A stretch of 48,087 bases of DNA. Source: a virus. The translations under genes were made by a program, and so were the position numbers. Positions 1,830-13,764 of this stretch are shown here, piece by piece (within the stretch, counting starts at the first letter, position 1; each line of letters opens with the position of its first letter). A model generated the notes under the pieces. It did not search any database. It was given only the letters and a program-made list of their open reading frames with translations, and had not been told where the DNA came from. The stretch is taken from positions 1-48,087 of IMG/VR virus record IMGVR_UViG_3300008108_000363, one strand, 5' to 3'.

Positions 1830-1938
1830 AATTACCGTCCTTGTCCGGCATAAGGTAGTAACGACCTTTCTCCATCATCCAGTGATGTCCTTCGGGTGCG
1901 TCCACCATTACGTGGGTCTGTTTCTTTTTAGCTTTCAT
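1765..1938 (-). CDS. Small MKAKK-family protein, 57 aa
   Basis: A 57-residue protein starting MKAKKKQTHVMVD, with a central His/Trp/Tyr-rich part (EGHHWMMEKGRYYLMPDKDG). Its ATG overlaps the TGA of the upstream small gene (ATGA), so it belongs to the same translationally coupled chain. The last ~21 codons run antisense through the end of the winged-helix gene. The shared MKAKKK start with its neighbours supports it as real. The middle reads like short proteins often seen among virion genes of Bacteroidota phages, but I assign no function. Confidence 0.65.
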   Translation of the reverse strand: MKAKKKQTHVMVDAPEGHHWMMEKGRYYLMPDKDGNFTPHAGASKEAKFRLYQSHSR

Positions 1939-2312: not shown

Positions 2313-2428
2313 TTGCGTACAACTTTAAGCTTTCCATCCTTCTCGTATACCTTCATACCAGCCTCCTCAGCCTGACGCTTCATTGAGTTGTACTTCTGGG
2401 TAACGGTCATCTTCTTCTTAGTCTTCAT
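2309..2428 (-). CDS. Small basic MKTKK-family protein, 39 aa
   Basis: A 39-residue protein (MKTKKKMTVTQKYNSMKRQ at the start, LKVVRK at the end) with ATGA overlaps to the genes on both sides. The start resembles the MKAKK starts of its neighbours. It is short, but the perfect four-base overlaps at both ends and the lysine-rich composition make it very likely to be translated. Function unknown. Confidence 0.65.
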   Translation of the reverse strand: MKTKKKMTVTQKYNSMKRQAEEAGMKVYEKDGKLKVVRK

Positions 2429-2643
2429 TTCTTAGCTCTATTACGTACTGCTGAGATAAAACGCTTCTCGTCGTGGTCGTAGTCCTTACCGTCTCCGTTG
2501 CCATAAGTGCCAGCCTGACGGTTCTTCTTGTTCAAGAACGCACGATATTGCTTGCGCTCACGAGTGGAGTGGTACTTCTTGTCGTACGCCTTCTTCTTTT
2601 CGTAGCTGTCGGGATTCTCGTCGTAGAACTTCTTAGTCTTCAT
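2425..2643 (-). CDS. Small basic MKTKK-family protein, 72 aa
   Basis: A 72-residue, highly charged protein starting MKTKKFYDENPDSYEKKKAY and continuing with many Lys, Arg, Tyr and Asp residues. It ends in VRNRAKK. It is coupled by a four-base overlap to the next gene and overlaps the end of the preceding one by 11 bases. The composition suggests nucleic-acid or capsid-interior binding, but there is no recognised domain. Confidence 0.7.
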   Translation of the reverse strand: MKTKKFYDENPDSYEKKKAYDKKYHSTRERKQYRAFLNKKNRQAGTYGNGDGKDYDHDEKRFISAVRNRAKK

Positions 2644-2755
2644 TGCTGAGTTTGTTTAGCAATTGGAAGTTGCGAATTCCAACAACGGCACGATCAGCAC
2701 TGACGCGCTTTACGCCACGTAGGTTTACCCCTCGCTTTTTTGCTGACTTTGCCAT
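2633..2755 (-). CDS. Small basic protein, 40 aa
   Basis: A 40-residue basic protein (MAKSAKKRGVNLRGVKRVS at the start, LLNKLSNED at the end). It overlaps the downstream gene by 11 bases and the upstream one by 31. It fills what would otherwise be a gap in a contiguous operon, which is the main support. Function unknown. Confidence 0.55.
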   Translation of the reverse strand: MAKSAKKRGVNLRGVKRVSADRAVVGIRNFQLLNKLSNED

Positions 2756-2919
2756 TGCTTGAGAATATAGCTCGTTAAGCTGTTGATAGAGTCGTGGAAG
2801 ACAACACGATCGTAGATACCGTTGAAGTAGTCAAGGTAATGGTCACGAGGGATTGCAGCCCACTGGTCCCGGTACGGGCTGTAGTGGAACACGTAATCAA
2901 TCAGTACCTCATTCCTCAT
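2725..2919 (-). CDS. Hypothetical protein, 64 aa
   Basis: A 64-residue protein with an aromatic-rich N-terminal half (MRNEVLIDYVFHYSPYRDQW) and a Gln/Ser-rich end (LKQWQSQQKSEG). It lacks the lysine-rich start of its neighbours and looks like a small soluble globular domain. It overlaps the upstream gene by 11 bases and so is translated from the same leftward message. Not recognised. Confidence 0.65.
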   Translation of the reverse strand: MRNEVLIDYVFHYSPYRDQWAAIPRDHYLDYFNGIYDRVVFHDSINSLTSYILKQWQSQQKSEG

Positions 2920-3088
2920 CCTCGTAGAAACAAGCCTTGAACTTAAAGCTCGTAGGCGTCTTACCAGAAGCCTTTACAGCAGCCTCTAGCTGTTTCATAC
3001 CTGAGGCCATATCCATAGACTTGATCTCGATCTCCTCACCTGACATCTCCTCCATCTTGCCTCCGTAGTTGTACTTCTTGGCTTTCAT
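2909..3088 (-). CDS. Small MKAKK-family protein, 59 aa
   Basis: I place the start at MKAKKYNYGGKMEEMSGEE rather than the longer frame, because this matches the MKAKK/KKYxxGG starts of the neighbours and sits one base past the previous stop. The body is acidic and helical (EEIEIKSMDMASGMKQLEAAVKAS) and ends FKACFYEDEE, so the charge pattern is a basic head with an acidic tail. Function unknown; probably a minor structural or accessory protein. Confidence 0.65.
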   Translation of the reverse strand: MKAKKYNYGGKMEEMSGEEIEIKSMDMASGMKQLEAAVKASGKTPTSFKFKACFYEDEE

Positions 3089-3089
3089 C

Positions 3090-3527
3090 TTACTTCTTCT
3101 TAAGCATCTTGAAGTCGTCTCCAGAGATCTTTCCGTCCTTGTTAGCGTCAAGCTTCACCTGTCCACCTTTGAGGTACTTCATCATTCCTCCCTTTGAGTA
3201 CATCTTACCGCCTTTGCCGTAGCCCATATACTTGTACTGGTCTTCAGAGGTAGCACCAGCTACGTTCATCTTACCGCCACCAGCGTACTTCTTAACGGGC
3301 TTCTTGGCAACCATCATACCCTTAGCCTTCAGCTCACGATCAAACGCAGGAACAGCATCAGGATCAGCCTTCTTGAGTTGATTGCGCATCTCGGTCAGGT
3401 TCTCCATCTCACGAGCCTTTGCGTTTGCATTGAACTTCTGGTCAGCCGTCATAGGCTTCTTCTTCTTTGGATCCGGAACGATCGGAGCCTTGCCTCCGTT
3501 CTGGTAAACAGTCATCTTCGCTTTCAT
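3090..3527 (-). CDS. Gly/Lys-rich MKAK-family protein with EF-hand loop
   Basis: A 145-residue protein beginning MKAKMTVYQNGGKAPIV. Residues ~75-122 carry repeated short glycine motifs (KKYAGGGK, YGKGGK, YSKGGMMKYLKGG). Residues 127-139 are DANKDGKISGDDF, a textbook EF-hand calcium loop with Asp/Asn/Asp at positions 1, 3 and 5, Gly at 6, Ile at 8 and Asp at 12. Only one loop is present, so it may act as a dockerin-like or pairwise metal site. It heads the small-gene operon directly behind a promoter. The glycine-lysine repeats resemble those of internal virion proteins; location in the particle is inference. Confidence 0.7.
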   Translation of the reverse strand: MKAKMTVYQNGGKAPIVPDPKKKKPMTADQKFNANAKAREMENLTEMRNQLKKADPDAVPAFDRELKAKGMMVAKKPVKKYAGGGKMNVAGATSEDQYKYMGYGKGGKMYSKGGMMKYLKGGQVKLDANKDGKISGDDFKMLKKK

Positions 3528-3532
3528 AACTA

Positions 3533-3540
3533 CAAAGTTA
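3533..3540 (-). promoter_or_regulatory. Promoter -7 element TAACTTTG (leftward)
   Basis: On the minus strand TAACTTTG precedes the ATG of the EF-hand gene by five bases. Transcription starting a few bases after the element would begin at or next to the start codon, giving a nearly leaderless message for the small-gene operon. Confidence 0.65.
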
Positions 3541-3541
3541 T

Positions 3542-4006
3542 TTATTTATACGGTACGTATTTTGTCTTACCACCCTCACGAACAGCCTTGAGGATCTGCT
3601 TGCGGTTAGCACCCTTGCGGTAACCTACGTGTACCCAATCAGGATTCTTATCTGTTCCGAACTCCCAGATCAGTTGATCGAACTCTAGGTTGTCCTTGAT
3701 GAACTTGAACACATCAGCATTGGTAACACCATTACCGTGGCCATCCTGATCAAGGTCAAGCGCACGACCCAAGTTATGGTCCGAGGTAGAACTACCACCG
3801 ATAGCCTTGTTCAAAGAAGCAGACCGGTACCCGCTACTAACAAAGATCGGCACACCAAAGTACTCACGTACCTTGTCGAACACCTCAACAGCAATAGTCT
3901 TCATATTCTCCAGATGCTCAGCAGTAGGCTCGTTGCTAATGCCCTTACGCTTGGCGGTATCACTCCGTGTTACCTCGGCTAATGATAGATAGTTACTTAG
4001 TTTCAT
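3542..4006 (-). CDS. Peptidase M15-type endolysin
   Basis: A 154-residue peptidoglycan peptidase of the M15 (D-Ala-D-Ala carboxypeptidase-like) family. The zinc site is visible: SSGYRSASLN, then SDHNLGRALDLD with H77 and D84, and PDWVHVGYR with H126. The N-terminal region (NYLSLAEVTRSDTA) matches the usual start of the small phage and bacterial M15_3 form, and the length is normal for it. I start at MKLSNYLSL because a TATCTTTG promoter lies just upstream; a start 16 codons earlier would overlap that promoter. There is no signal peptide, so release needs a holin; a holin-like gene lies far away in the late block. Function is confident by family, bond specificity is not. Confidence 0.88.
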   Translation of the reverse strand: MKLSNYLSLAEVTRSDTAKRKGISNEPTAEHLENMKTIAVEVFDKVREYFGVPIFVSSGYRSASLNKAIGGSSTSDHNLGRALDLDQDGHGNGVTNADVFKFIKDNLEFDQLIWEFGTDKNPDWVHVGYRKGANRKQILKAVREGGKTKYVPYK

Positions 4007-4011
4007 AGCCA

Positions 4012-4019
4012 CAAAGATA
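4012..4019 (-). promoter_or_regulatory. Promoter -7 element TATCTTTG (leftward, endolysin)
   Basis: TATCTTTG on the minus strand ends five bases before the endolysin ATG. The spacing predicts a nearly leaderless transcript. No TTG lies 20 nt upstream. Confidence 0.65.
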
Positions 4020-4087
4020 ACAACACCACCAATAGCTGTTTTTACTAGGTACATTACGTGTACCCTTACAAATACGCAGAATAAACT

Positions 4088-4104
4088 CCTACTAATCTAG
4101 TAGG
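4088..4104. repeat. Inverted repeat CCTACTA-ATC-TAGTAGG
   Basis: A perfect 7-bp inverted repeat with a 3-base centre lies in the gap between the leftward endolysin gene and the rightward RNA promoter. It could be an operator for either direction or a weak hairpin for leaderward transcripts. No protein partner can be named. Confidence 0.45.
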
Positions 4105-4151
4105 TATTTACATAAGTACCTGACAACCACACATATAAATCTACACATACC

Positions 4152-4184
4152 ACTTGACTTTCTCGTCTGTAGACCTTAGCTTTG
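4152..4184 (+). promoter_or_regulatory. Strong Bacteroidota-type promoter (-33 ACTTGA, -7 TAGCTTTG)
   Basis: ACTTGA is followed, 20 bases after its TTG, by TAGCTTTG, a full match to TAnnTTTG. The same ACTTG-to-octamer spacing of 33 bases overall recurs at three other rightward sites in this window. Predicted start of transcription is about 4189-4191, directly at the first hairpin of the candidate RNA. Confidence 0.75.
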
Positions 4185-4189
4185 TGCTA

Positions 4190-4425
4190 CGCTCTTGCGA
4201 CAAGAGCAACGACTGAACACTATATCGCCTGACGCTTCTCATATACGAAGCATCACAAACATAGCCCGACGGCGATCTTGAGCCGAGGGCGTGTACAGTC
4301 AGGGGAGCTAGCCCTAAGGCGACAAGCGACCCGGACAAGCGATAGAGCAACGCAAACAGAAACCGCTTGAAAGCTCTGGCAGATGTCCTGCCCTGTCCGG
4401 TCTGTCCAGTTCCTACAACCGGACG
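4190..4425 (+). ncRNA. Candidate structured noncoding RNA A
   Basis: About 235 bases downstream of a strong promoter with no convincing reading frame but dense base pairing. Visible helices: GCTCTTG/CAAGAGC with loop CGA at the very 5' end (4191-4207); a 10-bp closing stem GACTGAACAC with GTGTACAGTC (4211-4220 with 4291-4300, one mismatch) around two inner hairpins, GCTTC/GAAGC and GCCC/GGGC; an alternative helix ATCGCC/GGCGAT (4224-4229 with 4271-4276) that competes with the second; GGACA/TGTCC (4333-4337 with 4384-4388) enclosing AAGCG/CGCTT and AGAGC/GCTCT in the crossing order of a pseudoknot; and GTCCGGT/ACCGGAC (4395-4424) near the 3' end. It does not show the signatures of tRNA, tmRNA or RNase P RNA that I know. 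The 3' end is not followed by a T-run, so its end is uncertain. Confidence 0.6.
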
Positions 4426-4794
4426 GACAAAATCAACAGCAGTATGTAACGCTAGTTTATGTTCATATAGCTGTTTTCTACCCAGTTACAAAGATTGTCA
4501 AACATATTGAAGCCTTCCCCGTAAAACGTTTTAGAAAATAGTATCTAGGGGATTATATACATATACGCGCGGTTTCCTATTGCGGCGGAAATTGTTTTCC
4601 AAAGGTATGCCCCTGCATTTGGCGGGTTTTTGTTCCCAGGTTTTGGCGTTTCCTGGCGTTGGGTTTGGCTACTTGCGCCACCTTGTTAAGAGAGGCGGAA
4701 CAATTCCCCCGACCTTTTTTCCCGCGATCCCTTTGCCCCTCTTTTTGCCCCCTTGATATGCGCCGCGCCCGCTTGTGGCTGAATTTTTTTTTGT
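4426..4794. other. Noncoding stretch, no gene recognised
   Basis: Short frames here are proline- or arginine-rich and biased by homopolymer runs, and none has a credible start context. Composition changes along it: the first ~130 bases are A/T-rich, the rest has many C- and T-runs and GCG/CGC words like the two genes that follow. It probably belongs in part to a foreign-looking module. Confidence 0.4.
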
Positions 4795-4854
4795 GGTACG
4801 AAATCTTTGCCGTACCTTGTGGGCGTTCCCGCCTCGGTTGGCGGGGCGTTTTTT
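4795..4854 (+). terminator. Hairpin plus intrinsic terminator before a small gene
   Basis: Two hairpins in tandem: GGTACG/CGTACC with a 10-base loop (4795-4816), then CCCGCC/GGCGGG with loop TCGGTT (4828-4845) followed by a run of six T. The T-run ends 27 bases before the next ATG. It can end transcription from the RNA A promoter, or act as an attenuator for the following genes, since I see no promoter after it. Confidence 0.7.
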
Positions 4855-4881
4855 GTCTAATGTGTTAAAATTCAATTTGTT

Positions 4882-5301
4882 ATGTCTTTTAAGTATGTTT
4901 TATTCCAAGAATCTGGCAAGCAGAAAACCCGCCGCGAAGCGGTTCGGGCGAACTCTTTGCCTATGTTGGTGCGTTCTCTTTATGTTGGGTTACATACCCA
5001 AAAGCGCACCGGGCGCCGTATGTTCAATTTATCGGGCGGCGCGGGCGTTTGGTTAGAATTCTTTGACACCGAACTTCCGTTTGCCCGGTTGCAAAAATTG
5101 GCGCCCAATTCATTCAGCCCGCTGGCTATGTATGAGGCGCTTTTGCAATTAGAAACCCTTGCGGGCGGCAATTTGGCGGACTTCCCCGAATTGGAAGCAG
5201 AGTTCGCTTCGCTTCGTGAAGAAGCGGCCAAGTACAAGGCCGCGGCGCAGAAGAAGAAATTCACATCTGACGCGGAACTTGAAGCAATGGGCGCACAATG
5301 A
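4882..5301 (+). CDS. Hypothetical protein in G+C-rich module, 139 aa
   Basis: A 139-residue protein, basic at the start (MSFKYVLFQESGKQKTRRE) and helical with Glu/Ala/Lys-rich sequence at the end (LEAEFASLREEAAKYKAAAQKKK, a likely coiled coil at residues ~100-128). The middle contains SLPMLVRSLYVGLHTQKRTGRRMFNLSGG. Codon choice is unlike the rest of the phage (many GCG, GGC, CGC and TTG codons), which together with the next gene suggests recent acquisition. It overlaps the next gene by four bases. Family not recognised. Confidence 0.65.
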   Translation: MSFKYVLFQESGKQKTRREAVRANSLPMLVRSLYVGLHTQKRTGRRMFNLSGGAGVWLEFFDTELPFARLQKLAPNSFSPLAMYEALLQLETLAGGNLADFPELEAEFASLREEAAKYKAAAQKKKFTSDAELEAMGAQ

Positions 5302-5555
5302 TAGCGGGCGGCCTTATTCCGTCGCACTACGGCCACACGGCCGAATTGGTCGCGCGGGATAGTACCAAGGGCGAAAAGGTAGCGCGGGCTTTTAGTCCGC
5401 GCGGCCTTGCCCGCACGAAGAAACGCAAGCGGGCGCAAGATGCCCGCAACGGCGTAGAACTTGCGACTATGGGCAAGATTGACAAAAAGGCCGCAAACAA
5501 GCGCGCCAAGTTAGCCAAGCGCGAAGCCAAGCGGCGCGGGCTTATGGTTGTTTAG
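5298..5555 (+). CDS. Small basic protein in G+C-rich module, 85 aa
   Basis: An 85-residue, very basic protein with the C-terminal half almost entirely Lys, Arg and Ala (KKAANKRAKLAKREAKRR). It starts within the stop of the previous gene (ATGATAG context), so the two are coupled. The codon bias is the same G+C-rich type. It could bind nucleic acid, but no domain is recognised. Confidence 0.6.
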   Translation: MIAGGLIPSHYGHTAELVARDSTKGEKVARAFSPRGLARTKKRKRAQDARNGVELATMGKIDKKAANKRAKLAKREAKRRGLMVV

Positions 5556-5570
5556 ATCGGGTTAAAAATG

Positions 5571-5720
5571 CGCGAGGCGCGATCGCCCCAAAAGGGGCAA
5601 GAGTGAGAGCCACACTAAAAACGGCAAGCCCCTAAAAGTACGGCGCGCCCCTATGGGGATAAGTGCGCCCGAAATTAGGGGCTTTACCTATTTACAAGGG
5701 GTTGCGATTGCTTCTCCTTG
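5571..5720. other. Cluster of hairpins including a 59-base nested stem
   Basis: Four hairpins in 150 bases without a gene: CGCG/CGCG; GCCCC-AAAA-GGGGC; a nested element at 5626-5684 in which AAGCCCCTAA pairs with TTAGGGGCTT around GGCGCG/TGCGCC and CCCC-TAT-GGGG (20 pairs in all); and CAAGG/CCTTG. The symmetric arms could form on either strand. No T-run follows the nested stem, so it is more than a plain terminator: a structured leader, processing site or protein-binding site are options. Confidence 0.5.
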
Positions 5721-5747
5721 TTTACTTTGTCTTTTATTGTTTAACCC

Positions 5748-5777
5748 AGCCCCGCGCTTTTGTGTTGGGGCTTTTTT
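5748..5777 (+). terminator. Intrinsic terminator AGCCCC/GGGGCT + T6
   Basis: A 6-bp G+C stem with a 13-base loop followed by six T. It sits 14 bases before the next ATG, so it lies in the leader of the following gene as well as behind the G+C-rich pair. Confidence 0.7.
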
Positions 5778-5791
5778 ATTTGCTGTTTACT

Positions 5792-5995
5792 ATGCCTTTA
5801 GAAATGTACCAAGATTTAATTCAGTACCAAGCCAAGCGGATTGAATCGCTTACCACTGAATTAAAAACCCAGGAAGCCAAGTACAAAGAACTGCACGCCA
5901 ATTACAAAGAACTGCACGCGGTTGGTCTGGCTGTTGCTCAAGCATTACAAAACGAGATTAAAGAACTTAAAAAGAAACTAAACGATGAAAAATAA
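5792..5995 (+). CDS. Small coiled-coil protein, 67 aa
   Basis: A 67-residue protein starting MPLEMYQDLIQYQAKRIESL. Nearly the whole length is a heptad-like, Lys/Glu/Leu-rich coiled coil with an internal near-repeat (YKELHANYKELHA). I take this start rather than a longer hydrophobic-leading frame, because the extension would run back through the terminator. It overlaps the next gene by 11 bases. Function unknown; probably an oligomerising accessory protein. Confidence 0.65.
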   Translation: MPLEMYQDLIQYQAKRIESLTTELKTQEAKYKELHANYKELHAVGLAVAQALQNEIKELKKKLNDEK

Positions 5996-6182
5996 CAAAC
6001 TGAATCCGGTAGACAAGTACATACTATCCGGGGCGCTTGAACTTTGGGTTGAAGCGTTTAACCAAGAGCGTACAAATAACAAAGGTATCTCTTTGTTTGG
6101 TGAGCATTACGCCGAGGTTATGGCTCAAGAGATTAAACGAAAACTAAATATCAAAGAAGAAGATGAACCAGGTAACGTATAA
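5985..6182 (+). CDS. Hypothetical protein, 65 aa
   Basis: A 65-residue helical protein (MKNNKLNPVDKYILSGALEL at the start, RKLNIKEEDEPGNV at the end) that overlaps both neighbours and so belongs to a run of coupled small early genes. No recognised domain. Confidence 0.6.
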   Translation: MKNNKLNPVDKYILSGALELWVEAFNQERTNNKGISLFGEHYAEVMAQEIKRKLNIKEEDEPGNV

Positions 6183-6372
6183 CTATTGGACAAGCGTCAA
6201 GGGAAGCCACGCCGCAAGAGAGATTTGCGCTGACTTGAACAAGATGCTGGGAAGAACTGCTTGCCGTATTGCCCACAAGCAAGCGGGCGGCATTTACTTT
6301 TTAGACCTAATCGTAACTGGTGACGAAGCCATCAAGTACGACATTGAATCGGACTTTGTTTTATCCTTTTAA
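6163..6372 (+). CDS. Hypothetical protein, 69 aa
   Basis: A 69-residue protein with a plausible small alpha/beta pattern (EICADLNKMLGRTACRIAHK, then GGIYFLDLIVTGDEAIKYDI). It overlaps the preceding gene by 20 bases. Not recognised. Confidence 0.6.
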   Translation: MNQVTYNYWTSVKGSHAAREICADLNKMLGRTACRIAHKQAGGIYFLDLIVTGDEAIKYDIESDFVLSF

Positions 6373-6392
6373 CAAACTAAAAAACCAAAACA

Positions 6393-6698
6393 ATGAGCAA
6401 GTATAAAACAACTTTGGATTATTGGAACCCAAGAAACGAAACGGTTGTAACCAATGATGGGTTTCGTTATGTTGATACAACTTCAGTCATAACAAACACA
6501 AAAAAGATTGAGGACGATACCGAGATTGGTATGTTTGAACAATTCTATAAACTGAACAATAGTTTAAGATATTGTAATGGCTCTCACTACAAATGGCAAG
6601 ATGCTGAATGGTCAAACAAATATAGCAAGTGGTTAAAGTCCGATGACTACCGAAAGAAAAGTTTTAACCTTTACTATGGTAATGGGGTTGTCGATTAA
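6393..6698 (+). CDS. Hypothetical protein, 101 aa
   Basis: A 101-residue protein rich in Tyr, Asn, Trp, Lys and Asp (MSKYKTTLDYWNPRNE; WQDAEWSNKYSKWLKSDDYR). The start codon lies in an A-rich leader typical of Bacteroidota. The composition is more A/T-rich than the genes at 4.9-5.6 kb, so the foreign-looking module has ended by here. Function unknown. Confidence 0.65.
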   Translation: MSKYKTTLDYWNPRNETVVTNDGFRYVDTTSVITNTKKIEDDTEIGMFEQFYKLNNSLRYCNGSHYKWQDAEWSNKYSKWLKSDDYRKKSFNLYYGNGVVD

Positions 6699-6737
6699 AA
6701 AAAATAAACAAACAAACGCTTTTAACTAATCAACACT

Positions 6738-6836
6738 ATGGAGAGTATTCTAGAACTTATTAAAGTGCTTACAGGACCAGTAATTGTATCGTATGTCTAC
6801 TATCGTATTTACAAGTATGAAAAAGACAGCGAATAA
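6738..6836 (+). CDS. Small membrane peptide, 32 aa
   Basis: A 32-residue peptide with one hydrophobic helix (LIKVLTGPVIVSYVYYRIY) and a charged end (KYEKDSE). It starts with ATG after an A-rich leader and stands between two genes with no competing frame. Likely a single-pass inner-membrane peptide; function unknown. Confidence 0.5.
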   Translation: MESILELIKVLTGPVIVSYVYYRIYKYEKDSE

Positions 6837-6889
6837 ATATAGGTTAACTGACGCGCAATACAACGCTTTTGTATAACGATAAAGGAGAA

Positions 6890-6919
6890 GCGGACTGCCT
6901 TCAAGTGTCCGCATTTTTT
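6890..6919 (+). terminator. Intrinsic terminator GCGGAC/GTCCGC + T-run
   Basis: A 6-bp stem with an 11-base loop followed by ATTTTTTATTTTTTT. The first T-run ends 21 bases before the next ATG, repeating the terminator-then-gene arrangement seen at three other places in this window. Confidence 0.75.
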
Positions 6920-6940
6920 ATTTTTTTATTTAATTGTCTT

Positions 6941-7117
6941 ATGAAAACTAAACTATCAACCTTCTATATGGCCGCCGTTGAATATCCTCACGTTCGTGGC
7001 CCTTTGTTTCAAGTGCAAGCCCGAACCGAGAAAGAAGCAAGAGCAAAATTGCGCTTCCGACTTGGTATGGGACGTTGTCCAAACGGAACTAAGTTCGTAG
7101 ATTTGTTTACCATCTAA
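6941..7117 (+). CDS. Hypothetical protein, 57 aa
   Basis: A 57-residue protein beginning MKTKLSTFYMAAVEYPHVRG and containing RTEKEARAKLRFRLGMGR. I use the ATG after ATTGTCTT, because the gene downstream has the same ATTGTCTTATG start context; the longer frame would run through the terminator. The pattern, a short beta segment then a helix carrying EKEARAKLR, resembles many small phage proteins of unknown role. It may share a message with the amidoligase cassette. Confidence 0.65.
   Translation: MKTKLSTFYMAAVEYPHVRGPLFQVQARTEKEARAKLRFRLGMGRCPNGTKFVDLFTI
7075..7105 (+). promoter_or_regulatory. Possible promoter for the amidoligase cassette
   Basis: TTG, 20 bases, then TAGATTTG (TAnnTTTG) lie within the end of the preceding small gene, 41 bases before the first amidoligase ATG. 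The spacing equals that of the four stronger early promoters, but the -33 block is CGTTG rather than ACTTG, so this is a weaker call. Confidence 0.4.
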
Positions 7118-7146
7118 TCAACTAACCAATTTAATTTTATTGTCTT

Positions 7147-8490
7147 ATGGAAAGCAAGCCTTTATTTCGTGTTGGCGAGCAAGTGAGAATTGTCAAGCCT
7201 TCAAGACCAGCAATTATCTGGAACGATTTAGGAGAAATGGACCATTTAAATGGTCAGATACGTACCATCATTCAAGTTTTTGAAGACCGATGTTATGTAG
7301 ACAACGACGGACGTAGAGTTGGTAACTGGTCGTTATCATTTGATTGTCTTGTCAAAATAGAACAGCCAGAACCAATGAACAGCAACGACGAAGAAGATGA
7401 CGACTCTGAGTATGTAACTGACGTTGAGGGCCAAAAGATACCGCGAGAAGAAGCGGTGTTTACTAGTCTTGACGGCTGGGTACACGTTGACCGCGTAGTA
7501 ACTGCTGAAGATGGCGAGACGATGCACGAATCCACCGTTCGCGACCACGGCTATCGTTACGACCATCGTGGTGACTTGTATCAGAGGGACGAGCTGTACT
7601 ATGTGCAAGATACCGACGATTACCGTCACGAAAGTGAAGAAGGCGACACGTTCTTCTGGCACGAGCGTGATGGTGAGTACTACAGTTACGAGCCAGACAA
7701 CAATGATGAACGCCACGGCTACCAAAATGGCCCTCGCAATGACTATTCTGACGGCGCAAAGTTTCGTTTTGGCGTAGAGGTTGAGAAAGAAGACCGCGAC
7801 CCAATCGAATCTTACAGTCTTAACGATGTAGACAACACTGGCTGGGCTCGCGAATGCGACGGCTCACTTGACGACTATAGCGGCTACGAGTTAGTCAGTC
7901 CTATGTTTGACTTATTCGGAGATCGCTTTGATGCTCAGGTCAACAGCGATATCTTGTCTTACCACATCAACGCTGACCAGTCAAGTAACTGCGGTGGTCA
8001 TATTGGCTTCTCTATCAAGGGCAAGAGTGGCGTAGAAGCATTTGACTTGTACAACGGTTTCTTCCCACTGCTGTTCTCTATGTATCGTCATAGACTCAAC
8101 GGCACGTGGTCAAAACTGCGTACCAACAACAACTTCAAACGAGCCAGAGAGAAATACTCTGCTGTTAATGTTCGGTACAGCTACATTGAGTTCCGCATCT
8201 TCAGTGCGGTCAAGAATGTAACCAACTTGCTATGGCGTCGCGACTTGCTACGCATTATGGCTAAGAATCCCAAGAAGGGTGTTATGTGGTGGCTCAACCA
8301 AGCAATCAATCCTAACTCAGTCCTTCACAATCACTTGCTCAAGGTATACAGCGTAGAGAAAATCAATCTCGTCTGTGCTTATGCCGCGGCAATCGCAGAA
8401 CGTATGAATGGTCGCAAGTATGTAGACCTCATCCAATTTGCCGACGAAGATGCTAAGCACAACGCAAAGCGTTTCGTCAACAACCTCTAA
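7147..8490 (+). CDS. Amidoligase-family (GCS-like COOH-NH2 ligase) protein, first copy
   Basis: A 447-residue protein. Residues ~5-75 look like a small SH3/KOW-type beta domain (FRVGEQVRIVKPS ... GNWSLSFDCLVKIEQ), followed by an acidic linker. Residues ~90-195 are very rich in Tyr, Asp, His and Glu (GYRYDHRGDLYQRDELYYV; FFWHERDGEYYSYEPD). The amidoligase domain starts near residue 205 with FRFGVEVEKED (E211, E213), then DGSLDDYSGYELVSP from 238, CGGHIGF from 282, and a helical C-terminal half with YIEFRIFSAV. The family forms amide bonds between a carboxylate and an amine using ATP. Compared with the second copy, the second His after CGGH is replaced by Gly. It is followed directly by a glutamine amidotransferase, the classic partner. 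Substrate unknown. Confidence 0.82.
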   Translation: MESKPLFRVGEQVRIVKPSRPAIIWNDLGEMDHLNGQIRTIIQVFEDRCYVDNDGRRVGNWSLSFDCLVKIEQPEPMNSNDEEDDDSEYVTDVEGQKIPREEAVFTSLDGWVHVDRVVTAEDGETMHESTVRDHGYRYDHRGDLYQRDELYYVQDTDDYRHESEEGDTFFWHERDGEYYSYEPDNNDERHGYQNGPRNDYSDGAKFRFGVEVEKEDRDPIESYSLNDVDNTGWARECDGSLDDYSGYELVSPMFDLFGDRFDAQVNSDILSYHINADQSSNCGGHIGFSIKGKSGVEAFDLYNGFFPLLFSMYRHRLNGTWSKLRTNNNFKRAREKYSAVNVRYSYIEFRIFSAVKNVTNLLWRRDLLRIMAKNPKKGVMWWLNQAINPNSVLHNHLLKVYSVEKINLVCAYAAAIAERMNGRKYVDLIQFADEDAKHNAKRFVNNL

Positions 8491-8532
8491 TTGTTTCTTT
8501 TCATTTCTAATTCTATTTAATTCTTTTTTCTT

Positions 8533-9426
8533 ATGTGTATTGCAATTCTTAACCACGGTAAAAAACTTACCCGTACTGAAATGTCTAACTGCTGGGTGTC
8601 TAACGACGACGGCGCTGGTATGCTGTTCATCAAGGACGGCTACCTTCAGGCAATCAAACAACCCAACACCGACGGCTTCAATTGTGCCGGTGCTTCGTTT
8701 GACAAGTTCTACAAGGACTACGAAGAAATCTACGCTGAGTCTCGCAAGTTTGGCTATCCGATACTTGTTCATTTCCGTATTGCTACTCACGGACTTGACC
8801 CAGAGTATCTGCATCCATTCTTTGTCAGCGACAGCGTAGGTCTTATTCACAACGGCATCATCTATGGCTACGGCACTCGCGATTACAGCGACACTGCCGA
8901 GTTCACTCAGGAACTTGCTACTTTGCCTACGAGTATGACTCACAATGTAGAGTTCCTTGACATCCCATTCATTGCTAACTCTATCTCCGACAAGCTAGAG
9001 GATAGCAACAAGATTGTCTTTATGGACGATCGTGGTGAGTACCGCATCTTCGGTGAGAAACTCGGCCACTGGGTCGGCAACAACTGGTTCAGCAACGATG
9101 CGTACAAGACACGCACTACGTACTTCGGTTCCACCGTGGGCAAGCCAACTGCTAAGTATCAGCCACGCACTCAGTCATACTACGACAAGTGGTCTTACGA
9201 TGAGTTCTACGACTCGCCATATGGAACAGCAATCAAGCCATCACAAGAAGAAGCATACGTTGATACCAAGTACGAATGCTTTGTGTGTGCCCAAGATGTA
9301 CACGTAAACGACGAGGCTTGCTGTGTTGACTGTGGCTCTTACATCATTGAGGCAGAGTCTGAGGTAGTGAACAAGCTACTTGAAGAAGACGAGATGCTGA
9401 ATGGCCGCACTATTTTTATGGACTAA
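8533..9426 (+). CDS. Class II glutamine amidotransferase (Ntn hydrolase) with zinc ribbon
   Basis: A 297-residue protein. After Met removal Cys2 (MCIAILNHG) becomes the N-terminal nucleophile of the Ntn-type glutaminase. Other class II hallmarks follow: the Asn/Asp/Gly turn NDDGAGMLF, the glutamine-binding Arg in VHFRIATHG, HPFFVSDS, and the oxyanion-hole HNG in GLIHNGII. The domain liberates ammonia from glutamine for a partner synthetase. Near the C-terminus (residues ~250-275) CFVC and CCVDC form a likely zinc ribbon, an uncommon addition. No synthetase domain is fused, so the flanking amidoligases are the obvious partners. The start is fixed by the catalytic Cys at position 2. Confidence 0.88.
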   Translation: MCIAILNHGKKLTRTEMSNCWVSNDDGAGMLFIKDGYLQAIKQPNTDGFNCAGASFDKFYKDYEEIYAESRKFGYPILVHFRIATHGLDPEYLHPFFVSDSVGLIHNGIIYGYGTRDYSDTAEFTQELATLPTSMTHNVEFLDIPFIANSISDKLEDSNKIVFMDDRGEYRIFGEKLGHWVGNNWFSNDAYKTRTTYFGSTVGKPTAKYQPRTQSYYDKWSYDEFYDSPYGTAIKPSQEEAYVDTKYECFVCAQDVHVNDEACCVDCGSYIIEAESEVVNKLLEEDEMLNGRTIFMD

Positions 9427-9445
9427 TGTTTAAACAGATTGTATT

Positions 9446-11173
9446 ATGGTAACTATAAATTTCTCAAACTCACTAGATGAGTTCTCTAATGAACTGTTTC
9501 ACCCAGAGGCAGCAAGCATAGAGCATAAGGTGCTAAAAGGTCACGACATCTATCTAGATGTTGACTTCAGAGTCATACCAACAATGACTTCTGTATGTAG
9601 GCCTATGATTAACTACGATGGCTCACGTATAACAGACGGTATCATAACTGTTCTCCTTACGAGGGGGACATTTGGTGGCGTTACATTACGATCCAGAATG
9701 GATACTAATGATACTATTTTTGACTACGATGCTACCGGTTTAAGTCTTAGATATCTAAGTGTTCTGCTTTGGTCTTCTACAATCAACGGACAGAATCCAA
9801 GGCTGAACAAGGTCTTCAATAAGTATGAGCAAGAGGTTAAGCTAACGTCTCTGTTTAATTCAACAAACTCAGTATTTGAATCTAACTCAGAAGACGAAGG
9901 CATTCCGGTGTTGATTGATAACTGCTTAAGTGCAGAGACTGGTTCTTATACTAACGTAATCAGATATGTTGACGAAGACTTAGTTGCTACCAAGGAATAC
10001 ATAGAAGAACTCTATGGTAGAGAACGATATATATCTATAAGTTGGTCTGGCCACTATAAAGAATACATAACCTGCAACGACGGAGTAGTTCGTAGAGTTC
10101 AGGACTGTAAGCCTATGTTGACTGGCATAACTGTTAACGAAGACGGTAGTAGTTCTATTATTAAAGTAGAGTATGTATCTCTTGATGTTTTGGCTAGCTC
10201 AGAATATACAGTGACTACAGATCGTCTAGATCAAAACTATGACTCACTATACATCTTTAACCATACTGCTGAACGACTTGTAGGCAATACTTATGGAGAC
10301 ATAACTCCTATTATGTATGGACATAGGTTCTGTCTTGACAAACGGTTTAGGCCAATACACTGCCGACTTGACTACCACTCCAGCGACAGAGATGCTGCTG
10401 AAGAGATTAAGTCAGGTATGACTATTGGTTTTGAGATTGAGAAGGAAGACGAGAGTGCGCTTATGTCTTACGATGCACACACTCTTCTTGAAGATACTGG
10501 ATGGTTCAAGGAACGTGATGGTTCTCTTGACGACGACACCGGGTACGAACTAGTCAGTCCTATCTACGACCTGATGAGCGACAAGCTAGACAATGACATC
10601 AAGTCAAGTCCAGAACTTACTGAGCTAATCAATGCCGACTATGGGCGTCGCTGTGGTGGCCACATCCACATTGGCAATGGCGACAGTGGCTCTACGTTGT
10701 TTGACAAGATGTCTCCCTGGATACCACTCATCTACTCACTATACGTTGGGCGTATCGGTGGTGAGTACTGCAAGATCAAGAAGAACGACGACATCAAGCA
10801 CCACACAGAAAAGTACCAAGCTGTACGAATCTTTGACAATCGTATTGAGCTTCGTATCATCTCAGCCGTACCAAATGTAGAGACATTGCTATGGCGCAGA
10901 GACCTTATGCGTATGATTATGAATAATCTTGACTGGACTCCAATGAAGATTGTTAATCAACTGCTTGACCCAAAGAGTGAGCTATATGCTCTGCTACACA
11001 AGCAGTACATACCATCACAGATTTCTGTCAAGGCTAGGCTCTATGCCTACTTTGCTTCCGAGTTACTTGATGATGCTCACGCTGTCAAGCAACACGTTAT
11101 GAATGCTGTAGACTACTTCAGCAATACACAAATTCGTCACCTTAAATCATACTCTTTCAATGTCAACAAGTAA
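9446..11173 (+). CDS. Amidoligase-family (GCS-like COOH-NH2 ligase) protein, second copy
   Basis: A 575-residue protein. The first ~320 residues are a long acidic, beta-like extension without a family I can name; they include a stretch near residue 190 with ISISWSGHYKEYITC. The amidoligase domain begins near residue 325 with MTIGFEIEKED (E330, E332), then DGSLDDDTGYELVSP from 358, CGGHIHIG from 403 with both histidines (H406, H408), and ends with RIELRIISAV and LLWRRDLMRMI. The C-terminal 250 residues align by eye with those of the first copy (LLWRRDL, MIVNQLLDPKSEL), so the two are paralogues. It overlaps the next gene by 14 bases. This copy keeps the complete motif and is the better candidate for the active ligase. 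Confidence 0.82.
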   Translation: MVTINFSNSLDEFSNELFHPEAASIEHKVLKGHDIYLDVDFRVIPTMTSVCRPMINYDGSRITDGIITVLLTRGTFGGVTLRSRMDTNDTIFDYDATGLSLRYLSVLLWSSTINGQNPRLNKVFNKYEQEVKLTSLFNSTNSVFESNSEDEGIPVLIDNCLSAETGSYTNVIRYVDEDLVATKEYIEELYGRERYISISWSGHYKEYITCNDGVVRRVQDCKPMLTGITVNEDGSSSIIKVEYVSLDVLASSEYTVTTDRLDQNYDSLYIFNHTAERLVGNTYGDITPIMYGHRFCLDKRFRPIHCRLDYHSSDRDAAEEIKSGMTIGFEIEKEDESALMSYDAHTLLEDTGWFKERDGSLDDDTGYELVSPIYDLMSDKLDNDIKSSPELTELINADYGRRCGGHIHIGNGDSGSTLFDKMSPWIPLIYSLYVGRIGGEYCKIKKNDDIKHHTEKYQAVRIFDNRIELRIISAVPNVETLLWRRDLMRMIMNNLDWTPMKIVNQLLDPKSELYALLHKQYIPSQISVKARLYAYFASELLDDAHAVKQHVMNAVDYFSNTQIRHLKSYSFNVNK

Positions 11174-11396
11174 AATTGAAGCTAACTTCAGCAAGCCGTA
11201 CAAGCACGGCCTTACACGTTCAACTGCATACGTAACTGCTTTCGTATCTATTGATGCACCTAACCATCGGTTCAAGATAGACATCACCAGTGGGCACGAC
11301 ACTCTTGGCTCTGGCTCTGAGTTCAACCTACCAAAGATGGAAGCAACACTTCGTATGAAGGAAGAGATACTTGAGTTCATTAAACAGCACGTATAG
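11160..11396 (+). CDS. Hypothetical protein, 78 aa
   Basis: A 78-residue protein starting inside the end of the second amidoligase gene. The sequence (YVTAFVSIDAPNHRFKIDIT, then MEATLRMKEEILEFIKQHV) suggests a small beta sheet followed by an amphipathic helix. Coupling to the ligase gene suggests it is part of, or regulated with, the amidoligase cassette. Not recognised. Confidence 0.65.
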   Translation: MSTSKIEANFSKPYKHGLTRSTAYVTAFVSIDAPNHRFKIDITSGHDTLGSGSEFNLPKMEATLRMKEEILEFIKQHV

Positions 11397-11397
11397 T

Positions 11398-11529
11398 ATG
11401 AGCGACGAACAACTTGACAAAGAGATCCGTAAACAGAATGATCGTATGATTGACGCTGGAATATGGTTTCTTAGATTGACTATATTTGGGAATCTAGTGC
11501 TGTTAGTTTTATTTAACCTTCTAATGTAG
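11398..11529 (+). CDS. Small single-pass membrane protein, 43 aa
   Basis: A 43-residue protein with a charged head (MSDEQLDKEIRKQNDRM) and one C-terminal hydrophobic helix (LRLTIFGNLVLLVLFNLLM). The ATG lies one base after the preceding stop. Likely tail-anchored in the inner membrane. Function unknown. Confidence 0.55.
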   Translation: MSDEQLDKEIRKQNDRMIDAGIWFLRLTIFGNLVLLVLFNLLM

Positions 11530-11531
11530 CT

Positions 11532-11837
11532 ATGATTATGAAAATGTCTATAGAGGATTTTTTGTCTTCATCATTTAAGATTGACTTCTGTGTTGATGAA
11601 CACAATCGTCACAGTGTATTCTTTGAACCAGAGTGGGAAGACGACTGGAAGACAGTAAACTTTGGAGAGAACTTCTACGACGTTAACCTTTGGCTTGACG
11701 ACGATGACACAGTTCGCTTCGGAGTATACTGGATTAAGCCAGATCCAGATAACTCTACCGATGGTGCTTGGGTAACTGACAGCAAAGTTGTGTGCAGTAG
11801 CGACTGTAGCTCTTCAGTTATCACAATTAGTAGGTGA
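11532..11837 (+). CDS. Hypothetical acidic protein, 101 aa
   Basis: A 101-residue acidic protein with beta-like sequence (NRHSVFFEPEWEDDWKTVNF; DVNLWLDDDDTVRFGVYWI) and a Cys/Ser-rich end. It begins two bases after the previous stop; three Met codons in its first five leave the exact start open. It is the last gene before the second RNA locus. Function unknown. Confidence 0.6.
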   Translation: MIMKMSIEDFLSSSFKIDFCVDEHNRHSVFFEPEWEDDWKTVNFGENFYDVNLWLDDDDTVRFGVYWIKPDPDNSTDGAWVTDSKVVCSSDCSSSVITISR

Positions 11838-11860
11838 TTTATCAACAAAATCATTTAAAC

Positions 11861-11893
11861 ACTTGCATCTTAATTTTTTCTCGTGTAACTTCG
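11861..11893 (+). promoter_or_regulatory. Promoter (-33 ACTTGC, -7 TAACTTCG)
   Basis: ACTTGC, then TAACTTCG 20 bases after the TTG. The -7 octamer differs from TAnnTTTG by one base (TTCG), a variant shared with the promoter before the ribonucleotide reductase genes. Predicted start of transcription is about 11899, at the beginning of the second structured RNA. Confidence 0.65.
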
Positions 11894-11898
11894 CCTAG

Positions 11899-12080
11899 CG
11901 AAAGCAAGTCAGCGATACGACAGTAGCTGTTCGGATGTGAGACATACGAAAGGCAATCGTAGCATCGTGCGTCGTAGCGTAGCGAGAGGCCCTCAGGCCG
12001 ACGAAGCGTAGCGCGACGCCTGTGTCTAAGTACGAAAGACGTAGACGCAGGACGCGCTCGTTACGTTGTTTGAGCGGCGT
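11899..12080 (+). ncRNA. Candidate structured noncoding RNA B
   Basis: About 180 bases right after a promoter, without a reading frame and full of hairpins: CTaGC-GAAA-GCaAG with a GNRA tetraloop; CGACAG-TAG-CTGtTCG; ATGT-GAG-ACAT; GCGTCG (11969-11974) with CGACGC (12014-12019) around GGCC-CTCA-GGCC; a long hairpin CCTGtGTCTA...TAGACgCAGG (12019-12051); and ACGC-GCTC with GAGC-g-GCGT (12052-12080). G+C is high compared with neighbouring genes. As in RNA A, several hairpins have three-base loops. It could be a free RNA or the leader of the 30-residue membrane peptide that follows. No known RNA family is recognised. Confidence 0.55.
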
Positions 12081-12101
12081 ATTGTAAACCAACAACAACC
12101 T

Positions 12102-12194
12102 ATGAAACAGAAAATAAAATCTTACTCGGACGTAGCTCTTATGCTTATGTCTATCACGATGATTGTCTTGTACTTAGTAGACAGGACCAACTAA
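12102..12194 (+). CDS. Membrane micropeptide, 30 aa
   Basis: A 30-residue peptide, MKQKIKSYSDVALM at the start, with a single hydrophobic helix (ALMLMSITMIVLYLV) and the end DRTN. The leader (AACAACAACCT before ATG) is typical of this phage. It stands just after RNA B and before a terminator, so it probably shares that transcript. Function unknown. Confidence 0.55.
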   Translation: MKQKIKSYSDVALMLMSITMIVLYLVDRTN

Positions 12195-12297
12195 CAGCAA
12201 AATAAAAATCGCCCCGCGCAGGCAATGACCCCCAACACTACAAAGGTAGGCGCGGCTACGCTATGTAAAAGTTCTCCGTATAAGAACACAGCACGTG

Positions 12298-12329
12298 AGT
12301 GGGTAGGTACGGCTACGCCACTTTTCTTC
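12298..12329 (+). terminator. Intrinsic terminator after RNA B unit
   Basis: AGTGG-GTAG pairs with CTAC-g-CCACT (nine pairs, one bulge, loop GTACGG), followed by TTTTCTTCTTC. It ends the RNA B/micropeptide unit just before the next promoter. A shorter look-alike (GTAG-GCGCGG-CTAC) lies about 55 bases upstream. Confidence 0.75.
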
Positions 12330-12337
12330 TTCTAAAA

Positions 12338-12370
12338 ACTTGCATATCAATTAGATTGCTGTTATATTTG
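12338..12370 (+). promoter_or_regulatory. Promoter of the recombination/replication operon
   Basis: ACTTGC, then TATATTTG (perfect TAnnTTTG) 20 bases after the TTG, 21 bases before the ERF start codon. It shares ACTTGCAT with the promoter of RNA B. It is the best consensus promoter in the window and the likely main early promoter. Confidence 0.8.
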
Positions 12371-12391
12371 TATGATAATTCAATTCAACCT

Positions 12392-12976
12392 ATGGAAAAA
12401 CTAACATTCCAACAGCGGCTGATTAACGTCCAGTCGCGGCTGAAGGCACCAAAGTCTCAGTACAATTCGTTCGGTAAGTACGCTTACCGTAACCAGGAGG
12501 ACATCCTGGAGGCAGTCAAGCCTCTGCTTGCAGAGAACGGACTCGTTATGACAGTATCCGATGAAATCATTGGCGTTGGAGAACTTATGATTGTTCGTGC
12601 TGTTGTTAATGTTACCGATGGTACTGACAGTATTAAGGTATCCGCTTCTGCTGGCATTGACACCAACCGCAAGGGTATGGACATCGCACAATCGTTCGGT
12701 GCTTCATCGTCGTATGCTCGCAAGTACGCACTCAATGGTATGTTCTTGATTGACGACACCAAAGATGCTGACGCTACTAACACTCACGGCAAAGACGCGG
12801 CAGTTGCTACGCCTGCCGCTAAGCCTCAGGTAAAAGGCGACGATATGTTTCAGAAAGCCATCGACTCTATGAAGGAGAAGGGAACGAAGGAACAGTACGA
12901 CAAGATTATCGCGGCAGTTGGAGTACAGCTGTCCGAGGCTCAACGCAATGCGCTATCCAAGTTCATCAAGAAATAA
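12392..12976 (+). CDS. erf: ERF-family single-strand annealing protein
   Basis: A 194-residue single-strand DNA annealing protein of the ERF family, used for phage recombination and repair. The start at MEKLTFQQRL is fixed by the promoter and terminator just upstream. Diagnostic features: the N-terminal helix-rich LINVQSRLKAPKSQYNSFGKYAYRN, DILEAVKPLLAENGLVM at 37-53, and the core GMDIAQSFGASSSYARKYALNGMFLIDD at ~95-122, the family's hallmark. The C-terminal part after ~140 is a linker and a small helical domain. It is the first gene of the operon, followed by a RecE-type nuclease and an SSB-like protein, a standard recombination trio. Confidence 0.92.
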   Translation: MEKLTFQQRLINVQSRLKAPKSQYNSFGKYAYRNQEDILEAVKPLLAENGLVMTVSDEIIGVGELMIVRAVVNVTDGTDSIKVSASAGIDTNRKGMDIAQSFGASSSYARKYALNGMFLIDDTKDADATNTHGKDAAVATPAAKPQVKGDDMFQKAIDSMKEKGTKEQYDKIIAAVGVQLSEAQRNALSKFIKK

Positions 12977-13764
12977 TGAACGAGATCGTATTGCTTGACG
13001 GCACGTCTTGGGACTTGCCCACGATCCTTGAGGCTATGATGGATGATGACTTCTACTATGGCTATCTTTCTTCTGCTTCACTATCATCTTCTTCTGACAA
13101 GCTCCTTAACCAGAGCCCGAAAGAATATGCAAAGATGTTGCGTGGGAATTCCCTTGATACGTCCGCGCTTGCAATGGGTAAACTAATTCACACCGCAGTC
13201 CTTGAACCCGATAAAGTTGATACTCTATTCGTCACTGTTGATGTTGCTTCTAAGTCTACTAAGACGTATAAGGAAGCGAAACAACAGCTAACGAAAGGTC
13301 AAACGCTGTTGACCGAGAAGGAATACAGCGACTCTATGTATGTTGTAGATGCACTACTTCGCAACGAGGTAGTCAAGAATATGCTCAAAGGTGCAGAGTT
13401 TGAGATGCCAGCCATTGGCGACGTCGAGGGCTTACCACACCGGGCTAAGGCTGACATCCTCCACCGCGGAGTAGCAGTCTACGATCTTAAGACGACCTCC
13501 GACATCGGAGGCTTTAACTACAGCGCACGCAAGTATGGATATCCAGCTCAGGTATACATCTACTGCACGCTGTTTGGAATTGACTACAAGAACTTCAAGT
13601 TCATTGCAGTTGATAAAGGTAGCAAGGACATCGGTGTTTTCTCCGTATCCGAAGCCTTCTACCTCGAGGGTAAGCGTCTTGTTGAGAATGCTGTTCGTGT
13701 GTACACGGACTACTTCATCAACGGCGAAGACCTCGACACCTACATAATCTACGGAGAGCTTTAA
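12976..13764 (+). CDS. RecE-like PD-(D/E)XK exonuclease
   Basis: A 262-residue nuclease of the RecE/exodeoxyribonuclease VIII-like PD-(D/E)XK group (DUF3799 type). Visible pieces: LSSASLSSSSDKLLNQSPKEY near the N-terminus, an ALAMGKLIHTAVLEPDK segment at ~64-80, GLPHRAKADIL with D160, VYDLKTT with D170 and K172, and YGYPAQVYIYC (Y189, Q192). These are the expected metal-binding and catalytic residues in order. It trims double-strand ends to make the single strands on which ERF acts. It overlaps the ERF stop by one base (TAATG), consistent with coupled expression. Confidence 0.88.
   Translation: MNEIVLLDGTSWDLPTILEAMMDDDFYYGYLSSASLSSSSDKLLNQSPKEYAKMLRGNSLDTSALAMGKLIHTAVLEPDKVDTLFVTVDVASKSTKTYKEAKQQLTKGQTLLTEKEYSDSMYVVDALLRNEVVKNMLKGAEFEMPAIGDVEGLPHRAKADILHRGVAVYDLKTTSDIGGFNYSARKYGYPAQVYIYCTLFGIDYKNFKFIAVDKGSKDIGVFSVSEAFYLEGKRLVENAVRVYTDYFINGEDLDTYIIYGEL

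Follow-up and report, generated by a model that had tools for sequence, protein, structure and literature searches.

A linked amidoligase and class II glutamine amidotransferase cassette with two paralogous ligases in a probable Bacteroidota phage

Layout and conservation of the cassette

The window, a 48-kb virus record analysed over its whole length (48,087 nucleotides), contains three adjacent genes on the + strand, as are all cassette features given below. The first, ligA (7147-8490), encodes an amidoligase of 447 aa, GAT (8533-9426) encodes a class II glutamine amidotransferase of 297 aa with the N-terminal nucleophile Cys2 and an HNG motif, and ligB (9446-11173) encodes a second amidoligase of 575 aa. 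The open reading frames lie exactly where an initial annotation, made from the sequence alone, had placed three genes on one strand with Cys2 and HNG in the amidotransferase. The intergenic gaps are short, 42 nt between ligA and GAT and 19 nt between GAT and ligB, and the two ligases are paralogues as judged by their 42% identity (E 3.6e-48). The three genes thus form an operon-like unit, in which a complete class II (Ntn) amidotransferase is accompanied by two GS/GCS-type ligases that are paralogues. Scans for promoters and terminators returned no more candidates than expected from shuffled sequence.

Relatives of the cassette, at 33-79% identity, keep the same gene order in other viral contigs. 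Compared with the related locus L001, dN/dS was 0.13, 0.16 and 0.27 for ligA, GAT and ligB, respectively, values which are rough because dS is high, and all three genes are under purifying selection. Hence the match between ligA and ligB, the relatives in the same order and the purifying selection together exclude a chance origin. Positive selection as an explanation of fast evolution was ruled out, dN/dS being well below 1, and the uneven divergence along the cassette region looks like phage mosaicism.

A small gene on the same strand (11160-11396), whose first 14 nt coincide with the end of ligB, encodes a conserved protein of 78 aa and, from its homologues in related loci, is the fourth cassette gene in the two-ligase lineage. 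These homologues were found only in loci of that lineage and in L009. The gene lies directly downstream of the cassette in L001, L007, L009 and L021, and at a greater distance in L020 and L024. It is missing from the cassette as described in the initial annotation.

The virus carrying the cassette probably infects bacteria of the Bacteroidota, in support of the context first proposed for it. The cassette lies in the early region with ERF and exonuclease genes alongside, a position that would suit phage DNA hypermodification, in which the cassette would equip a modified base with an amide-linked group. However, a thymidylate-synthase-type gene was not found in the window record or in six of the seven related records, which are possibly incomplete, the only record with one being that of L021, and this role appears very improbable.

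Domains, active sites and origin of the enzymes

The ligA protein begins with a small beta domain of SH3/KOW-like type (about aa 8-70; 7168-7356), delimited by strands E12-15 to E68-70 in the AF2 model and by Foldseek, in which partial matches to ribosomal KOW-type proteins span about 70 columns with weak E-values of about 0.03-0.05. The next region (about aa 87-180; 7405-7686), defined from AF2 secondary structure and motifs of relatives, consists of repeated strand-turn-strand-short helix-strand units with DG...(H/Y)xDD motifs. The GS/GCS-like catalytic domain follows (about aa 200-447; 7744-8487), with G209, E211, E213, K214, W233, E236, D238, S240, E248, H285, R316, E348, R350 and R364 invariant in 44 relatives. 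In ligB, invariant residues and AF2 confidence place the catalytic domain at about aa 320-542 (10403-11071), where pLDDT exceeds 85 in nearly all 10-residue blocks; the N-terminal 200 aa of this model are unreliable, with a pLDDT of about 30. The ligA model has a mean pLDDT of 89.9.

Both ligases carry the signature GxExE ... DGS ... GYELxSP ... GGHxH ... ExR, which is invariant or nearly so in alignments with 44-46 diverse relatives. The sole departure in ligA of the window is the replacement of the second H of HxH by G, so that its active-site motif reads CGGHIG (7990-8007), compared with an intact CGGHIH in ligB (10652-10669). The second H is found in none of 11 members of the ligA clade (N in 5, G in 4, S in 1 and A in 1) and in all 10 members of the ligB clade. 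In glutamine synthetase (GS), this position contacts the ATP phosphate. Its occupation by G or A in the ligA subgroup of the window is what would be seen if ligA had degenerated into a non-catalytic protein with a regulatory or scaffolding role for ligB. Such a role is nevertheless quite unlikely, as every other catalytic residue is invariant in the ligA clade, dN/dS is lower in ligA than in ligB, and L009 retains ligA and GAT while lacking ligB, which is the opposite of the pattern expected for a pure helper of ligB.

The best fold matches in the PDB were glutamine synthetases and gamma-glutamylmethylamide synthetase (GmaS) for ligA (Foldseek E 6.2e-4 to GS), and GS and YbdK for ligB (Foldseek to YbdK E 7.5e-4, probability 0.99). 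Because the TM-scores of the ligase models to GS are low (0.2-0.35), the fold assignment rests on the E-values, on the fact that all top matches belong to one superfamily and on the motifs. Both ligases are accordingly predicted to have a GS-like fold, and the GS/GCS-like amidoligase assignment of the initial annotation is sustained by these models and by the catalytic motifs. Support from profile searches of the window itself is weak. ligB matched PF12224 weakly (E 0.0096; 16.3 bits, below the curated cut-off of 22) and GAT matched PF13522 weakly (E 0.0019; 18.6 bits, below the cut-off of 27), while ligA had no PF12224 match in the search of the window. Weak PF12224 matches recur in related records (9 of 44 ligase relatives at E<0.01) and the ligase of phage MEP402 passes with 23.3 bits. 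As neither reaches the cut-off, the window ligases are described as divergent relatives of this family rather than as Pfam members. NCBIfam gave nothing informative for the window ligases, and PDB sequence searches with the ligase and GAT profiles gave nothing useful.

The assignment of GAT to class II is also supported. Of the 103 aligned GATs, 102 carry the respective residue at each of C2, R82, T85, H94, P95, H106, N107, G108 and D120, and the one other row has a gap there. On sequence grounds, this makes the protein a class II (Ntn) glutamine amidotransferase with a complete active site, comprising the nucleophile Cys and the glutamine pocket. The GAT of StenR_269 matches it with an HHalign probability of 99.2%, and its homologues in L176 and L177 pass PF13230. 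Near the C-terminus, a CxxC...CCxxC cluster (9277-9333), present in near relatives only, is zinc-ribbon-like, with putative metal binding.

In the ligase tree, the first and second ligases fall into separate supported clades (95/86 and 100/97, respectively), in support of the paired, diverged set that had been proposed and, together with the motif contrast above, of a single origin of the two-ligase set. The second ligases, always located behind GAT, are not sister to the first-ligase clade, so that a local duplication of ligA into ligB is not favoured. GAT groups in its own tree with ligA-type lineages, and ligB looks like an added gene stemming from an older split. L021 has a second GAT, which is highly divergent and shares a long branch with the GAT-GGACT protein of MW202828, so that its placement is unsure.

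Linkage and distribution

Separate occurrence of the genes in related phages had been named as an observation that would speak against a cassette. A ligase was found within 3 kb upstream of GAT in all 73 assessable viral loci of the GAT scan, and GAT in 65 of 66 assessable loci of the ligase scan, the remaining locus being truncated at the end of its contig. The linkage of ligase and GAT, with a median gap of 26 nt, is close to obligate over 107 distinct viral loci and speaks for functional coupling. Among isolated phages, tblastn returned no ligB relative, one weak ligA match and six GAT matches. None of these matches came from the flavobacterial phages that are closest by their virion proteins. 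In bacterial genomes, the ligase profile found no relatives and the GAT profile three; in plasmids, the only matches to the cassette were distant GATs, the ligases having none. The pair is also present on a Chitinophaga conjugative element.

Related modules differ in their accessory genes. In MW202828, GAT forms a fusion protein with a gamma-glutamyl cyclotransferase (GGACT; E 7.5e-18), and the StenR_269 module includes GGACT. The corresponding PF06094 was found in both, and was absent from the window record and from 11 related records of the two-ligase type, which are possibly fragments. No ATP-grasp protein was detected in the same 12 possibly fragmentary records with a single StenR_269 protein as query, the family being strongly divergent. 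A search for COOH-NH2_lig (PF14395) gave no match, not even in a control, and is uninformative. With neither GGACT nor an ATP-grasp relative turning up in these records, the branch may have a different activity or rely on host enzymes.

In L177, two ligases and GAT occur together with an ATP-grasp of RimK-like type, whose fold is one that attaches glutamates to protein. This association, as well as the large and variable N-terminal ligase domains that would fit substrate recognition, would accord with protein or peptide tagging, in which a phage or host protein would receive an amino acid or short peptide from the ligases by an isopeptide bond, to be trimmed by the Ntn-fold GAT. However, the 78-aa protein is conserved along its full length rather than just at a C-terminal tag, and tagging is unlikely. 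As for the counter-defence role once envisaged, nothing supports it, PADLOC models giving no match up to E 0.1.

Putative function and comparison with known systems

The most likely function of the cassette is amide or gamma-glutamyl bond chemistry on a putative cytosolic substrate, perhaps an envelope precursor, with GAT acting on gamma-glutamyl amides. More specifically, there is about an even chance that a Bacteroidota phage has in these genes an accessory metabolic cassette, in which the ligases join a carboxylate to an amine and GAT processes the gamma-glutamyl amide. The ligases would use ATP and metal to activate the carboxylate as an acyl phosphate before coupling it to the amine. They may act successively or on two separate substrates, since the HxH and HxX motifs differ yet each is conserved. 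GAT could supply ammonia from glutamine to one ligase, like GatD for MurT, or take a gamma-glutamyl group off a ligated intermediate, like EgtC in the pathway started by EgtA. The second option is slightly favoured, because a related phage has the GAT-gamma-glutamyl cyclotransferase fusion and the cyclotransferase is encoded as a separate protein in known phage modules.

In an alternative centred on ammonia supply, the ligases would take peptidoglycan precursors as substrates and amidate their carboxylates, an outcome like that of MurT/GatD, and the altered wall of the infected host would counter superinfection or premature lysis. Wall amidation is the published guess for phiEco32, LUZ24 and RIO1-like phages (PMC5498523, PMC10580990, PMC11945000), and peptidoglycan hydrolase genes lie nearby: an M15 peptidase gene in the window (3545-4054) with related genes upstream in L001, L009, L020, L022 and L026, and a glucosaminidase gene downstream in L021 with homologues in L020, L022, L024 and L026. 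However, lysis genes are expected close to a phage cassette in any case, the Chitinophaga conjugative element has less evident use for superinfection exclusion, and the published accounts examined report no assay of cell-wall modification by such modules. Wall amidation is possible but on the unlikely side. Returning to amide or gamma-glutamyl chemistry in general, a cytosolic cell-envelope precursor is tentatively the likeliest target, a small metabolite or protein tag being nearly as likely. It is also conceivable, though doubtful, that two ligases and one GAT run a two-step pathway to a gamma-glutamyl- or amide-linked product new to phages and distinct from GGCT/ATP-grasp modules, the HxG/A-type first ligase having a changed reaction.

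MurT/GatD resembles the cassette in pairing a ligase with a glutaminase, its substrate being an envelope precursor. MurT belongs to the Mur ligases and GatD is an amidotransferase of class I-like type, neither being homologous to the cassette enzymes. In ergothioneine synthesis, the GCS-type ligase EgtA is paired with EgtC, an enzyme of class II GAT fold that removes gamma-glutamate (PMC9103826), a combination of folds shared with the cassette. However, no EgtB/EgtD neighbours were noted at the cassette, and EgtC and the window GAT are related at the superfamily level only.

Amidoligase-GAT pairs, as well as two-amidoligase modules, have already been described in phages (PMC5498523, PMC3890496, PMC10580990, PMC11945000), so that the initial designation as an undescribed system was too strong. 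According to citing papers, the phage pair was predicted in Iyer 2009 (PMC3890496, PMC5498523). Such pairs have been annotated since then with a guessed role, no assay being found in the literature examined. The "peptidoglycan modification" modules of LUZ24/PaP3/tf/UFV-P2, phiEco32 and RIO-1/PSA-HP1 likewise combine an amidoligase with a class II GAT, located in the early region, and sometimes have two amidoligases, their function being predicted only (PMC3890496, PMC5498523). Unlike the window cassette as searched, these modules additionally encode gamma-glutamyl cyclotransferase, ATP-grasp and COOH-NH2_lig proteins, the last being a family (PF14395) that matched no control either (PMC3890496, PMC5498523). 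In sequence they are remote, with an HHalign probability of 7.9% (E 0.0044) against the StenR_269 amidoligase. In the OM43 phages MEP401/MEP402 (PMC10580990), ligase gp06 and GAT gp07 are adjacent and ordered as in the window, gp07 sharing 37.6% identity over 192 aa, whereas their one ligase, compared with two in the window, sits on a separate, distant branch of the tree. The novelty lies in a divergent branch from Bacteroidota phages where two anciently diverged ligases have a single GAT in common. This compact, long-maintained three-gene version, with two active-site motifs and one GAT, makes the question of the product directly testable.

Organization and family identity of the cassette

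The three-gene cassette described in the initial annotation is present in the window, with all genes on the plus strand: a first amidoligase, ligA (7147-8490, 447 aa), a class II glutamine amidotransferase, GAT (8533-9426, 297 aa, N-terminus MCIAI), and a second amidoligase, ligB (9446-11173, 575 aa), separated by 42 nt (ligA/GAT) and 19 nt (GAT/ligB). The end of ligB is overlapped by a fourth ORF (11160-11396) encoding a 78-aa protein with no match in a profile search, whose family was detected solely in the phage lineage of the window, where it adjoins or lies near the cassette. The host is likely a member of the Bacteroidota, because the virion proteins share ~30% identity with those of Flavobacterium elemo and Cellulophaga phages and the primase/helicase shares 33% with that of Maribacter phage Panino. 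The window is an IMG/VR virus record in its own right (48,087 bases) and possibly a fragment. It also encodes two giant proteins on the minus strand, one of 2287 aa (25816-32679) with almost no PHROG match and one of 1620 aa (35193-40055) resembling a virion structural protein, a Group 1 glycosyltransferase (PF13692, 20771-21733) between the early and ribonucleotide reductase genes, and a homing-endonuclease-like protein (phrog_314, 42482-43075) amid structural genes.

Against library profiles, ligB and GAT weakly matched PF12224 (E 0.0096) and PF13522 (E 0.0019), respectively, ligA had no match, and a PHROGs search of the cassette proteins returned nothing useful. The two ligases are related to each other (E 3.6e-48, 42% identity). 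Weak PF12224 matches recur in records related to the window; among 44 ligase relatives, 9 score E<0.01, and the cut-off is passed by the OM43 phage MEP402. AlphaFold2 models were confident for ligA (mean pLDDT 89.9) and for the catalytic domain of ligB, the N-terminus of which was unreliable. The top Foldseek matches of both ligases in the PDB were glutamine synthetases (GS), gamma-glutamylmethylamide synthetase and YbdK, with low TM-scores, as expected because these remote homologues are covered partially. The ligase signature (GxExE, DGS, GYELxSP, GGHxH, ExR) shows little or no variation across 44-46 relatives. Of 103 aligned GATs, 102 retain the full class II site (Cys2, Arg82, Thr85, His94, His106-Asn107-Gly108, Asp120), and the remaining row has a gap.

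Linkage and history of the two-ligase arrangement

Profiles A1 and A2 (the GAT alignment), run against viral contigs, gave >150 loci, 107 of them distinct once shared proteins were removed: 84 ligase-GAT, 10 ligase-GAT-ligase, 1 ligase-GAT-ligase-GAT and 12 other arrangements or contig-edge fragments. Related phages were checked for unlinked genes, an outcome that would have counted against the initial annotation and was not the one observed. A ligase lay ≤3 kb upstream in 73/73 GAT-scan loci having at least 1.5 kb of upstream sequence, and GAT was present in 65/66 ligase-scan loci having at least 1.5 kb downstream (the exception, L027, begins at a contig edge), counts that include near-copies and measure linkage, not independent events. 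The cassette is judged to be real, conserved and functionally coupled.

In an IQ-TREE phylogeny of 112 catalytic domains, the second ligases of nine loci and contig-edge L027 form a single clade (support 100/97), while the first ligases of those nine loci group separately (95/86), together with L009 and contig-edge L006. This pair of lineages has therefore been kept together, from the window to contigs with ligases ~35% identical overall. Since neither clade is sister to the other, and GATs of two-ligase loci group with lineages whose sole ligase is ligA-like, the simplest history suggested by the trees would be that a ligB that had diverged earlier was added behind a pre-existing ligA-GAT pair, in which case L009 would have lost ligB or never possessed one. 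Separate two-ligase arrangements occur in L051, L056 and, by annotation, L177, a Flavobacteriaceae MAG contig in which a ligase and GAT are followed in order (1982-7304) by a pair of small ORFs, another amidoligase, whose PF12224 score exceeds the cut-off, and finally a RimK-like ATP-grasp. L021 carries tandem ligase-GAT modules (1918-7001), the second GAT being highly divergent; a thymidylate synthase is encoded on this contig as well.

The CGGHxH motif (CGGHIG in window ligA, CGGHIH in ligB) contains HxH in 10/10 ligB-clade members and in 0/11 ligA-clade members, where the last residue is N (5), G (4), A (1) or S (1). The window's own ligA subgroup has G or A as the second residue of HxH, an unusual state given that active GS enzymes include both HxH and HxN. 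Single ligases elsewhere have H, N and T mixed at this position. Between the window (7147-13764) and L001, identity reaches 100% for the exonuclease, 98% for the endolysin and ~65% for the ligases, a strongly unequal divergence of adjacent genes that suggests mosaic exchange.

Predicted chemistry and candidate targets

What the analysis establishes is the sequence, fold, conservation and linkage of the cassette. The ligases are predicted to catalyze ATP-dependent amide formation, and GAT may act in gamma-glutamyl chemistry. Gamma-glutamyl processing is the favoured role for GAT because, in the phage relative MW202828.1 (L015, 6923-8140), a single ORF adjoining a diverged amidoligase joins a class II GAT to a gamma-glutamyl cyclotransferase domain (E 7.5e-18), and because ergothioneine synthesis pairs the GCS-type ligase EgtA with EgtC, a class II GAT-fold enzyme that removes glutamate (PMC9103826). 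The NCBIfam EgtC model makes weak contact with two GAT relatives. Ammonia supply by GAT is almost equally possible.

An envelope precursor, a small metabolite and a protein tag are all candidate targets. DNA modification is less likely, because a thymidylate-synthase-type enzyme was not found in the window record or in 6/7 related records. Outside phages, a ligase-GAT pair in Chitinophaga eiseniae (L176, 4784-6753) lies between a ThiF/E2-type gene pair, the E2 gene of which belongs to prokaryotic E2 family D, and a TraM-type conjugation gene. This pair looks to have been carried, at least once, on a conjugative element, making a role restricted to superinfection exclusion less compelling, on the thin evidence of one case.

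Relation to known phage modules

Amidoligase-GAT modules occur in the LUZ24, phiEco32 and RIO-1 phage groups alongside a gamma-glutamyl cyclotransferase, an ATP-grasp and another ligase; a role in peptidoglycan modification and superinfection exclusion has been proposed for them (PMC3890496, PMC5498523, PMC11945000). In OM43 phages, a ligase and a GAT occur as a pair (PMC10580990). Searches of the window record and of 11 records related to it detected neither a gamma-glutamyl cyclotransferase nor a relative of the StenR_269 ATP-grasp. Hence, the window cassette would work like part of these modules but differs from them in the cyclotransferase. Although biochemically uncharacterised, the phage ligase-GAT pair itself was already known; what is new is the two-ligase variant.
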